This document shows positions 52,339-58,106 of a stretch of DNA of 64,000 nucleotides, one piece after another. Every line of letters starts with the position of its first letter. Position 1 is the stretch's first letter. Under the pieces are notes generated by a model. The model did no database searches, was not told where the DNA came from, and saw only the letters and a list, made by a program, of their open reading frames with translations. This DNA comes from Nitrospirota bacterium (lineage in GTDB: Bacteria > Nitrospirota > Nitrospiria > Nitrospirales > Nitrospiraceae), in assembly GCA_026387665.1 (NCBI GenBank), contig JAPLLG010000007.1:434001-498000 (forward strand), given 5' to 3'. The translations under genes and the position numbers were made by a program.

Positions 52339-52391
52339 AAAGTGCGGGATCCCACTACCCCGTTTTTGCCTTTTCACTTTTGAACTTTTCA
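52326..52391. repeat. Word-hairpin repeat, AAAAGT type
   Basis: Left arm AAGTAAAAAGTAAAAAGTGC (52326-) and right arm GTTTTTGCCTTTTCACTTTT (52362-52391). The left arm supplies the end of the acetyltransferase coding sequence. Confidence 0.8.
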
Positions 52392-52403
52392 TTGGAACGA
52401 GCC

Positions 52404-52802
52404 ATGCGAGTGATCAAGCTTCTCCATACCCGTATGAGGGTCAGCGACATGGACCAGACGATCGCCTTCTACCGAGATGTCCTCGGACTGGAGGTGCTGG
52501 AGCGTAAGGTCTCGCCGCGGGGCTCCCATCTGGCCTTCCTCAAGATACCCCAGAGTGAGGAACTCATCGAACTCTGCAGCTTCCCCCCGAGCGGACCGGT
52601 GACGGTCCAGGAGGATCTGGTTCACCTGGCCTTTCAAGTCGAAAGCCTGGACGAGACCATCGCATCCCTCACGGAGCAGGGCATTCAGATTACAGACGGG
52701 CCGACCGCAACCTCATCCGGCAGCCGGTTTATTTTCATCGATGCCCCGGACGGGTATGAAGTCGAACTGATCGAACGGCCGCATGGTGTGAAGATCGTAT
52801 GA
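52404..52802 (+). CDS. VOC-superfamily protein, glyoxalase I-like
   Basis: 132 residues. Two beta-alpha-beta-beta-beta modules with the four glyoxalase I metal positions all present: H8 (LLHTRMRV), E in ELIELC, H in LVHLAFQV and E in GYEVELIE. Related to lactoylglutathione lyase, which detoxifies methylglyoxal hemithioacetal. It could also be another VOC isomerase or lyase. Start ATG 52404 (MRVIKLLHTRMRV) fits the family; an upstream TTG would lie in repeat sequence. Confidence 0.85.
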   Translation: MRVIKLLHTRMRVSDMDQTIAFYRDVLGLEVLERKVSPRGSHLAFLKIPQSEELIELCSFPPSGPVTVQEDLVHLAFQVESLDETIASLTEQGIQITDGPTATSSGSRFIFIDAPDGYEVELIERPHGVKIV

Positions 52803-52928: not shown

Positions 52929-52946
52929 ATACCAAAGGAGCCAGAC

Positions 52947-53816
52947 ATGAAGAACGGATTCTTTCGCGGACATGGGCTGGGCAATGACTACATCGTCATG
53001 GACCCCAAGGAACTGTCGTTTTCGCTGAGCCCATCGAGGATCAAAGCTATCTGCGATCGTAATTGGGGACTGGGCAGCGACGGGATCCTGGCGCTGGTGC
53101 CGACGAAAAAAGCGGACTTCGGTCTGCGCATCTACAATCCTGACGGCAGCGAAGCGGAAAAGTCCGGCAACGGCCTGCGCATCTTCGCCCGCTATCTCCA
53201 CGCAACCGGCAAAACGAAGAAAAAACACTTTACCGTCGAAACCAAGGGCGGGCTGGTGACGATCGAGCTGCATCTGGACCGGCATGGGGATGCGAGTTCC
53301 GTCACAGTCGAAATGGGCAAGGCTTCATTCCAGCCTGCCTCACTCCCCTGCAGCCTCATAGTCAACGAACTGATCACACAGCCCATCAAGGCGGCAGGCC
53401 AGCCACTTATGTTTACCGGAGTCAGCGTCGGCAATCCCCATTGCGTCGTGTTCAAACCGGCAGGCCAGTCCTGGTCGCGAGAGGATCTCCTCAAGCTGGG
53501 GCCTGCGCTGGAAAACCATGCCCTCTTCCCGAAACGCACGAACGTGCAGCTCGCCGTGCCAACCGGCCCGAAGGAACTCTTCATCCTGATCTGGGAGCGC
53601 GGAGCCGGTGAAACCCAGGCCTCCGGGTCCTCCTCCTGCGCCGCAGCAAGCGCGGCCGTCAAACTCAGACTGGTCAAGAGCCCCGTCACGGTGAAAATGC
53701 CGGGAGGCCAGCTCAATATCCAGGTCGCCGAAGACTTCAGCCTCACGATGAAGGGACCGGTCGCGGAAGTCGCGCGCGGAAGCCTGAGCCCCTCGTTCGT
53801 GCGCGGGCTCAGGTAA
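52947..53816 (+). CDS. dapF: Diaminopimelate epimerase-like protein, catalytic Cys to Ser
   Basis: 289 residues, two DapF lobes, start ATG 52947 with AAAGGAG eight bases upstream. Family landmarks: HGLGNDYIV, GLGSDGIL, NPDGSEAEKSGNGLR, VGNPHCVVF, ERGAGETQASG. DapF catalyses two-base epimerisation of LL- to meso-diaminopimelate with a Cys pair at positions equivalent to C73 and C217. Here both are Ser: S73 in KSGNGLR (TCC) and S226 in QASGSSSC (TCC). The rest of the fold looks intact, so this is a specialised subgroup, possibly still an epimerase, possibly another isomerase. The gene lies between a VOC gene and uvrC; no other lysine or cell-wall gene is adjacent. Confidence 0.75.
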   Translation: MKNGFFRGHGLGNDYIVMDPKELSFSLSPSRIKAICDRNWGLGSDGILALVPTKKADFGLRIYNPDGSEAEKSGNGLRIFARYLHATGKTKKKHFTVETKGGLVTIELHLDRHGDASSVTVEMGKASFQPASLPCSLIVNELITQPIKAAGQPLMFTGVSVGNPHCVVFKPAGQSWSREDLLKLGPALENHALFPKRTNVQLAVPTGPKELFILIWERGAGETQASGSSSCAAASAAVKLRLVKSPVTVKMPGGQLNIQVAEDFSLTMKGPVAEVARGSLSPSFVRGLR

Positions 53817-55718: not shown

Positions 55719-56216
55719 ACGCAGTCATCCCCGAGCGACTGAGCAGCACCCCTCGCATACAAGCTCCCACAAGCCGACAGACACAACCGAGCCCTCTCTT
55801 CAAAACATAAATTTGAGACTGGCGGTCCCCAAGTGGACATAGGCATGGCACCTCCCGTCGACGGTAGGGTTGCGATTCCCGGTAATAGTCCGCGGCTCAT
55901 AGAACCATAAACAAAAAGCCCGAGCTTTTAGGATAGTCGGGGCACCTTGCCTATCGGCGGGGAGCTCCAGGGTGACAACGCAAGAAACAAGGACCAAACA
56001 ACGATCAATATGGGTCAACTCGGCACTATTTTTAAATATGTGATTTTATGACCACGCGCCCTTGCTGACTTCTTCAAAGAAAGTAGGTAGAATGGTCATC
56101 TGTCTTTCAGGAAGAATCCAAGGCCCTCATTACGATGTCACGGCAGTCCCTACCGATAGTTAGGGGGGGCAATTGCTGAGGCATTCTGGAGAATGCAGAG
56201 GGAAGGAGGGAATTCC
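55719..56216. other. Non-coding region between uvrC and luxR
   Basis: No credible gene. A hairpin read on the minus strand (GCCCCGA ... TCGGGC then CTTTTTG) at about 55913-55942 could terminate transcription coming from the right. A short palindrome GCATTCT-GG-AGAATGC at about 56181-56196 lies just before the luxR Shine-Dalgarno and may influence translation or bind a regulator. AT-rich sequence at 56030-56055 may contain the luxR promoter. Confidence 0.4.
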
Positions 56217-57218
56217 ATGGCAGTGCCTAGAAAAGTCGCAGCCGCCAACACCCTCACCGTTTCCGGTGAGATTCAAGATAGATGCTCAGCGCATAGTCAA
56301 GCGCATCTCGTCTCGGACGATGTACTGTATGGGGAATTTCCTTTTATCCAGCGAGAGAGGGAATTGTCTCATTCATTAGGGGTGCATGAGAGTGCTGATC
56401 GCAGCCCCTCTCACATATCGAGGGTGAAAGGCCCAGGCGAATCGCGACGTCCGTTTCCTTCCAAGACGTTTTCTAACCTGACGAAATCGGAGATACATCA
56501 AGTCCTAGAAATCCTCCACTACTCAATGGACGCCAGGACAGGGGATGATGTGCAACATATTCTCCAACTTCTCCAACGCACAGTGGCTTGCCCTAGAGTG
56601 ATAGGTGGTGTTGCACGCCTCACCACAAAAGGTAGCTTTAAAGAATTCACCAGTATGCTCAATGTAAGTTATTCGAACGACTGGGTATATGCCTATTGCA
56701 AGAACGAGTACGCAACCGTCGACCCGGTATTGAAATCTCTCCTCTCTACGTTCCAAACGCAAACCTGGAAGCAGACATACTCAACAGCCAGCTCTCGAAA
56801 GCAGCTAGAATTTGTCGAAGAAGCTCGCTCGTTCGGACTGACCCACGGAATAACCACTGGAGTCCTTGAGCAAAACCAGGGATTCGCAACCTTCTTTTCA
56901 TTTGCCGGAGGCGATGCGAACGGCACAGCCCGCTATAGAGGGCTATTGGAATATCTCATCCCCTATCTGCACCGCGTCCTGATCGCGAACACCCATATGC
57001 CATTGTCCACCCAAGCCAAGGGCCTTTCGCCTCGAGAAATGACAGTATTGTTCTGGATGAAGGAAGGAAAAACAAACTGGGAAATCGCTCGTATTGTGGG
57101 GGTGACCGAACGGACTGTGCGCTTTCACGTTGAAGGCATTTTCATGAAGCTTGATGCCAGTTCCCGCACTCAGGCAGTGGCAGTTGCCATGGAGCATGGC
57201 CTGCTTCAGGCAGGGTAA
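56217..57218 (+). CDS. luxR: LuxR-type quorum-sensing regulator
   Basis: 333 residues, ATG 56217 with AAGGAGG eight bases upstream. After an N-terminal extension of about 90 residues comes an autoinducer-binding domain (about 95-250) with the conserved W and Y in NDWVYAYCKNEYATVDPVL, the W in TQTWKQ and the G in SFGLTHGITTGV. A LuxR helix-turn-helix (about 265-333; GLSPREMTVLFWMKEGKTNWEIARIVGVTERTVRFHVEGIFMKL) follows. It should bind an acyl-homoserine lactone and then a lux box. The luxI gene is convergent, 34 bases away. The long N-terminal extension is unusual for the family. Confidence 0.88.
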   Translation: MAVPRKVAAANTLTVSGEIQDRCSAHSQAHLVSDDVLYGEFPFIQRERELSHSLGVHESADRSPSHISRVKGPGESRRPFPSKTFSNLTKSEIHQVLEILHYSMDARTGDDVQHILQLLQRTVACPRVIGGVARLTTKGSFKEFTSMLNVSYSNDWVYAYCKNEYATVDPVLKSLLSTFQTQTWKQTYSTASSRKQLEFVEEARSFGLTHGITTGVLEQNQGFATFFSFAGGDANGTARYRGLLEYLIPYLHRVLIANTHMPLSTQAKGLSPREMTVLFWMKEGKTNWEIARIVGVTERTVRFHVEGIFMKLDASSRTQAVAVAMEHGLLQAG

Positions 57219-57252
57219 GCTACCCACCCTGGCGATTGAAATCTTTCTTCAC

Positions 57253-58032
57253 TCAGGCTGCGGCCAATTTTCTTCCTCTCTCGCCTAACAACTGCTGATC
57301 TTGCCGCCAAATCTGGGTTGCGTCTGACTCGACAAACTGCTGCCTAGGCTCCCTGGCAAAGAATCCGCTTTTCTCAAACGAGGTCGAACCGTCTACCGCA
57401 TTCATCCACTGGAAAAACGACGGCTGTTTGAGCGGACAGGTTTCGTAAAACAGCTTCCAGTCAAGAACGGCAGCAATTGACAGCGCCCCAGCTGGGGGAA
57501 GAGATACGGCCGGGCTAATGGCCTCGCACGAAAGCCCTATCCCCCGAAGCACCCGGAGAAATCTTTTCTCAACCACCATATACATATAGGGGACCTCGTT
57601 CTGCCTTGACCATTGATACACCCCCTTAATGAGAATCAGCATTAGACGACTCGAAAGTCCTTTGTCCGTCAACGTTGGGTCTAATGCCAGCCTCGTAATC
57701 TCTGCAGTATCGGGCTCCTTCCGAATTTCACAGTCCGCGAGTAAACAGGGACGAAATTCTTTCTCTATCATGAATGGGTAAGGGGATCGCACCATCCGAA
57801 AGACGCCACGGAGCTTCCGTTCGTCGTCAAACAGCCCAACCGACGTGGCAAATGTATCGTAGGCATCAACTTCAAGCCCATCGTCGCTTTTCGCAACCCA
57901 TTGAAGCCGGTCAGCAAACACCTGGTGGCGCAGATGATACGACGCGCTGAGATCTTGCTCATCTGACAATGTTTTTACAAGTAATCTGTCCTCCCGAAAC
58001 TCGATCGGTCGACTCTCCTCCAACACCAGCAT
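57253..58032 (-). CDS. luxI: Acyl-homoserine-lactone synthase (LuxI family)
   Basis: 259 residues, ATG 58032 with AAGGAGG six bases upstream. Conserved LuxI residues are in place: R35, F39 and W45 (LRHQVFADRLQW), D56 and D59 (EVDAYD), R82 region (FRMVRS), E111 and R114 (AEITRL). It makes an N-acyl-homoserine lactone from S-adenosylmethionine and an acyl-ACP. About 50 residues longer than E. coli-type LuxI proteins at the C-terminus. A perfect lux-box palindrome lies 75 bases upstream of the start, suggesting positive feedback by the neighbouring LuxR. Confidence 0.87.
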   Translation of the reverse strand: MLVLEESRPIEFREDRLLVKTLSDEQDLSASYHLRHQVFADRLQWVAKSDDGLEVDAYDTFATSVGLFDDERKLRGVFRMVRSPYPFMIEKEFRPCLLADCEIRKEPDTAEITRLALDPTLTDKGLSSRLMLILIKGVYQWSRQNEVPYMYMVVEKRFLRVLRGIGLSCEAISPAVSLPPAGALSIAAVLDWKLFYETCPLKQPSFFQWMNAVDGSTSFEKSGFFAREPRQQFVESDATQIWRQDQQLLGERGRKLAAA

Positions 58033-58106
58033 GAGCACCTCCTTCTTCCTTCTACAGACCACTCGCTACCATGCGAGGAAAATGCATCAATTCATGGCGC
58101 CACGTC

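Follow-up and report, generated by a model that had tools for sequence, protein, structure and literature searches.

Among racemases, diaminopimelate epimerase (DapF) is the textbook example of a two-cysteine enzyme; it is also a target for antibacterials, and its known covalent inhibitors react with the thiols. The LL-DAP aminotransferase DapL yields LL-DAP, so that the DapL route still requires an epimerase, and LysA is established to decarboxylate the D-centre of meso-DAP. The side-chain pKa of serine is much higher than that of cysteine, which argues against serine as a replacement in this chemistry. Mutational studies point in the same direction: C83A and C221A variants of Corynebacterium glutamicum DapF are almost inactive (PMC5296763), the activity of HisR C67S and C209S is greatly reduced (PMC11602996), and mutation to serine has been said to hinder catalysis (PMC12039745). 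Precedent for serine as an acid/base residue is provided by a natural Ser/Cys 4-hydroxyproline epimerase of the superfamily (PMC4113996). No Ser/Ser epimerase is described in the literature searched, in which subscription journals are little covered; searches on Nitrospira DapF and on serine variants of DapF gave no published account of such a protein.

A DapF homologue with serine at both catalytic positions

The window, that is, the whole 64,000-nucleotide stretch of Nitrospirota DNA analysed here, contains an open reading frame that begins with ATG at 52947, ends with a stop codon at 53814-53816 and encodes a full-length DapF homologue (Table 1). Among NCBIfam models, the DapF equivalog TIGR00652 is the sole match exceeding its curated cut-off (230.9 bits against 114.65, covering profile positions 3-268 of 270), and a Pfam scan returned PF01678 only, at 182.8 bits, with no match to the proline racemase/hydroxyproline epimerase family PF05544. 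The model for the bifunctional DapF/glutamate racemase (NF038284) gave 55.5 bits, far under its cut-off of 350.

Table 1. Coordinates of the Ser-Ser dapF gene, its putative ribosome-binding site and the codons discussed in the text.
Feature	Position in window	Strand	Basis
Ser-Ser DapF homologue, 289 aa; sole DapF-family gene of the genome	52947..53816	+	TIGR00652, PF01678
Putative ribosome-binding site AAAGGAG, 6 bases 5' of the ATG	52934..52940	+	sequence
Ser73 codon TCC, first catalytic Cys position, N-terminal end of helix 74-86	53163..53165	+	alignment, AF2
Ser226 codon TCC, second catalytic Cys position, N-terminal end of helix 227-239	53622..53624	+	alignment, AF2
Lys72, flanks Ser73; invariant in Ser-Ser proteins, Met/Phe/Gln/Ala/Leu in others sampled	53160..53162	+	alignment
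Ser229, flanks Ser226; never varies among Ser-Ser proteins; the others sampled have Gly (or Ala)	53631..53633	+	alignment

The original prediction placed S73 and S226 at the positions of the two acid/base cysteines, both encoded by TCC, and held that the other DapF motifs are retained. Alignment to solved DapF structures (8qzy, 3ejx, 4ik0) bears out both statements. S73 aligns exactly with the cysteine of 'EQCGNG' and S226 with that of 'GETQACG', and no gaps occur around either active-site motif, so that the cysteines are not offset by one or two residues. The respective codon pairs are AAG-TCC for K72-S73 (53160-53165) and GCC-TCC for A225-S226 (53619-53624). Every canonical DAP-binding residue (N13, N64, N163 and H165 of the Asn-Pro-His motif, N199, E217 and R218) is invariant, and residues close to the catalytic positions that are diagnostic of the Ser-Ser group include K72, I79, Q224 and S229.

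Four cysteines remain in the protein (36, 135, 166 and 231), and all four are invariant in Ser-Ser DapF, which rules out a general loss of cysteine. The possibility that the catalytic cysteines had moved elsewhere in the active site, which the earlier analysis had named as grounds for abandoning its claim, can be dismissed for C36, C166 and C231, because ordinary Cys-Cys DapFs carry cysteine at the equivalent positions. C135 is specific to the Ser-Ser group and could be such a displaced cysteine.

In an AlphaFold2 (AF2) model of the protein (mean pLDDT 90.3, pTM 0.85), the two domains are folded as in DapF, and the N-termini of the two helices that bear the catalytic positions face each other. 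Helices 74-86 and 227-239, which follow directly on residues 73 and 226, correspond to those bearing the cysteines in DapF. The best match in the PDB by Foldseek is Pseudomonas aeruginosa DapF (8qzy; TM 0.84/0.88, 38% identity), and the C73S and C217S mutants of Haemophilus influenzae DapF are within the top ten. The equivalog score, binding residues and fold are therefore those of DapF, and the two catalytic cysteines are missing. Since the sequence, fold and binding site agree with DapF and the catalytic dyad does not, these proteins are named here a Ser-Ser variant lineage of DapF; the lineage probably works like DapF, and its membership in the two-cysteine enzyme family is unconfirmed.

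Distribution, conservation and descent of the serine pair

Across Nitrospirota and outgroups, 131 DapF sequences were read at the catalytic positions, giving 55 Ser-Ser, 18 Ser-Cys and 58 Cys-Cys pairs. Ser-Ser proteins are spread over the window's genus, many further genera of the same family and a second family of the order, f4. Ser-Cys proteins come from some ten other genera of the window's family and, elsewhere in the class, from family f8. Cys-Cys proteins were found in all remaining families of the class and in the other classes sampled, for which the sequences were drawn from the best-scoring genomes and are hence not an unbiased sample. Whole-genome searches detected DapF in nearly all genomes of the family and nearly always in single copy (140/147). 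Where present, the Ser-Cys protein is the sole DapF of its genome (L003, L005, L008, L013, L024, L112-L116, L133 and L139). Nitrospira sp. CG24C (L018 = G051; L161) carries two tandem Ser-Ser dapF copies about 0.5 kb apart, and a scan of viral contigs yielded two DapFs, both Cys-Cys.

Conservation of the pair was assessed with a search pattern that left both catalytic residues free, every retrieved gene of the type being counted. Serine occupies both positions in all 117 distinct genes of the Ser-Ser type, and its codons have drifted synonymously, both at position 73 (TCC 67, TCA 32, TCG 11, TCT 6, AGC 1) and at position 226 (TCC 90, TCA 16, TCG 7, TCT 4). The median pairwise dN/dS is 0.064, which together with the conserved pair indicates strong purifying selection and fixation of both serines; the claim that the paired change was selected rather than random is thereby upheld. 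The window belongs to a Nitrospira, and the closest named loci are Nitrospirota MAGs, with identities up to 96%, and the complete genome of Nitrospira moscoviensis (L173), at 87%. Both serine codons of the window's gene are one base away from cysteine (TGC to TCC), as would be expected of a sequencing error, a recoding event or a decaying pseudogene. Such an artefact is nevertheless refuted, and its probability is negligible, given the identical pair across many independent assemblies, including that of N. moscoviensis, the low dN/dS and a reading frame without internal stops.

In Cys-Cys relatives (G189 = L135 and G177 = L136), dapF lies in the gene order argG-argH-lysA-dapF-dapA-dapB (DISPLACEMENT). 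The same order is present in a Ser-Cys genome of the window's family (G011 = L133), and in a genome of f8 (G170 = L139) the Ser-Cys dapF follows lysA, dapA and dapB not being found within the stretch fetched. In the Ser-Ser genomes L132 (the genome of the window) and G202 = L134 (f4), lysA directly abuts dapA and dapF is missing between them. The Ser-Ser gene is located at another site: most f1 genomes have it next to uvrC and a glyoxalase-like gene, and its context in f4 is different. With this slot empty and the Ser-Ser gene at another locus, the native dapF has been displaced by the Ser-Ser gene in the two Ser-Ser genomes examined. Just downstream of uvrC, the window also encodes (56193-58062) a LuxR-type regulator that binds autoinducer and, convergent to it, an autoinducer synthase of the LuxI type; the two are likely a quorum-sensing pair.

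The Ser-Ser clade is monophyletic in two trees (support 100/99 and 100/100). A tree that joins Ser-Ser and Ser-Cys proteins in one clade was rejected (delta lnL 70, AU p = 2.7e-6), implying that Ser73 arose at least twice in DapFs now found within one class, and that the first-position serine in the native dapF genes of relatives is of independent origin. In a first tree the Ser-Ser clade seemed to lie outside the Nitrospiria DapFs; with long branches removed, its grouping with all Nitrospiria DapFs was not rejected (AU p = 0.296), so that the gene may have come from within Nitrospiria or from outside. Two MAG contigs, L219 (labelled Gemmatimonadetes) and L220 (labelled 'bacterium'), encode Ser-Ser DapFs that are 76-77% identical to that of the window and branch next to f4, and their neighbouring genes (peptidase M19, Zn-dehydrogenase and SprT-like) are non-Nitrospira. 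These record titles and neighbourhoods suggest that Ser-Ser dapF has been transferred between lineages.

Pathway context and possible functions

The window's genome (G000) comprises 2.64 Mb and is 99.83% complete. A whole-genome family search of it recovered no second DapF, with or without cysteines, so that the conditional concern that this might be the only DapF in the genome proved justified. The genome encodes DapL (617.8 bits against a cut-off of 593.25), LysA, and a MurE that scores 592.6 bits with the meso-DAP ligase equivalog NF001126 (cut-off 373) and contains a DNPR motif. No DAP dehydrogenase was detected above cut-off in the 21 genomes searched, which rules out a bypass through this enzyme; weak sub-threshold matches occur in some relatives, and the window's genome has not even one of these. 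The suggestion that lysine and peptidoglycan synthesis might rely on LL-DAP aminotransferase chemistry with a separate epimerase thus stands for the aminotransferase and fails for a separate DapF or DAP dehydrogenase. As DapL forms LL-DAP and LysA uses meso-DAP, an epimerase is expected, and Ser-Ser DapF is the only candidate of known families and the only evident source of meso-DAP.

Other genes were considered as well. The VOC-family gene upstream of dapF (52380-52802), examined as a stand-in epimerase, is glyoxalase-like and scores below every epimerase cut-off; it is not adjacent to the Ser-Ser dapF in L138. The lone weak Pro_racemase match in the genome belongs to a PhzF-family isomerase (L233:961-1890, minus strand), a cofactor-independent protein with a DapF-like fold. 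The glutamate racemase MurI was not found above cut-off in 136 genomes of class Nitrospiria, Cys-Cys genomes included, and the window's genome has no match to the Asp/Glu racemase family. It does encode a class IV aminotransferase resembling D-amino-acid transaminase (L237), which may supply D-Glu. A bifunctional DapF/glutamate racemase, a reading prompted by the missing MurI, does not hold as a specific explanation: MurI is lacking across the class irrespective of the DapF type, the NF038284 score is far too low, and the transaminase-like gene is present.

Nitrospira probably relies on Ser-Ser DapF as its functional diaminopimelate epimerase. The substrate would be the LL-DAP formed by DapL and the product the meso-DAP that LysA needs for lysine and MurE for peptidoglycan; Ser73 and Ser226 would act as a Ser/Ser acid-base pair in a two-base proton transfer, with helper roles that may also contribute to the mechanism. 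The original prediction had left a serine epimerase, another isomerase and a binding protein side by side; gene displacement, pathway context and the intact substrate-binding residues favour the serine epimerase as the candidate. Counted against an epimerase are some near-complete genomes without any DapF match (G050, G127, G191, G198 and G199, 90-99% complete), which may reflect assembly gaps or true losses. The protein could be no epimerase at all but a DAP binder or another isomerase, with meso-DAP supplied by a different enzyme; for instance, a D-specific transaminase such as the one encoded by L237 could aminate tetrahydrodipicolinate directly, as DAP dehydrogenase does. The severe loss of activity in Cys-to-Ser and Cys-to-Ala mutants of ordinary family members would fit this explanation, which is nonetheless unlikely: all DAP-contact residues are conserved, the disappearance of the native dapF from its operon in the two genomes examined points to replacement more than to a new role, the genome has no DAP dehydrogenase, and the transaminase is already expected to be needed for D-Glu supply because the class lacks MurI. 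The laboratory mutants, moreover, lack the accompanying changes present in Ser-Ser DapF.

A functional DAP epimerase might also employ a proton-transferring residue other than serine on one or both faces, e.g., Lys72 or Cys135. Both residues are invariant in the 55 Ser-Ser proteins and absent from these positions in Cys-Cys and Ser-Cys proteins, yet neither S73 nor S226 varies either, and both occupy helix N-termini like the catalytic cysteines, which makes this variant rather improbable, slightly more so than a protein without epimerase activity. Returning to the serine epimerase, a reasonably probable interpretation is a natural two-serine, cofactor-independent amino-acid epimerase, in which Ser/Ser has taken over throughout a bacterial lineage from the Cys/Cys proton relay regarded as essential for DapF; the native gene would have been displaced, the native gene of relatives would have partly converged (Ser-Cys), and the Ser-Ser gene would have moved between lineages.

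H2O2 inactivates C. glutamicum DapF, and its two catalytic cysteines form a disulfide under oxidation (PMC5296763). An enzyme without this switch would suit aerobic nitrite oxidisers, and freedom from the inactivating disulfide is one speculative candidate for the selective benefit of the Ser/Ser pair. If the proposal is true, the meso-DAP step of Nitrospira, a group of nitrite and complete ammonia oxidisers, is predicted to be insensitive to oxidative inactivation, and these organisms to thiol-directed DapF inhibitors. A natural two-hydroxyl enzyme would also make the removal of an alpha-proton by a weak base without a cofactor testable, and the Cys-Cys, Ser-Cys and Ser-Ser enzymes of one bacterial class allow a comparison of cofactor-free proton removal.

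Comparison with known systems

Ser-Ser DapF resembles ordinary DapF (TIGR00652, PF01678; 8qzy and H. influenzae 1gqz) in its full-length homology, fold, DAP-binding residues and pathway. It differs in having serine for both cysteines, in the fixation of K72 and S229 alongside them and in a locus away from lysA-dapA. The engineered C73S and C217S DapFs (2q9h, 2q9j), which are among its best fold matches, carry serine at one catalytic position; they derive from a Cys-Cys enzyme altered at one site in the laboratory, with catalysis reportedly hindered, whereas Ser-Ser DapF has both serines naturally and in a co-adapted background.

Within the same superfamily fold, the Ser/Cys 4-hydroxyproline 2-epimerase and the Ser/Thr t3Hyp dehydratase (PMC4113996) have a natural serine at the first acid/base position. 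These enzymes act on other substrates and belong to another family, and at the second position the epimerase has Cys and the dehydratase Thr. The chlamydial bifunctional DapF/glutamate racemase (NF038284; PMC5885031) has the DapF fold and occurs in an organism without recognisable MurI; however, it keeps both cysteines, and Nitrospira instead has a D-amino-acid-transaminase-like protein for D-Glu. The Ser-Cys DapFs of other Nitrospiria (e.g., L003, L005, L133 and L139) have likewise replaced the first cysteine by serine as the single-copy, sole DapF of their genomes. In contrast to the Ser-Ser type, they are native genes (adjoining lysA and dapA in L133) that retain the second cysteine, and the two types are about 29% identical and of separate origin.
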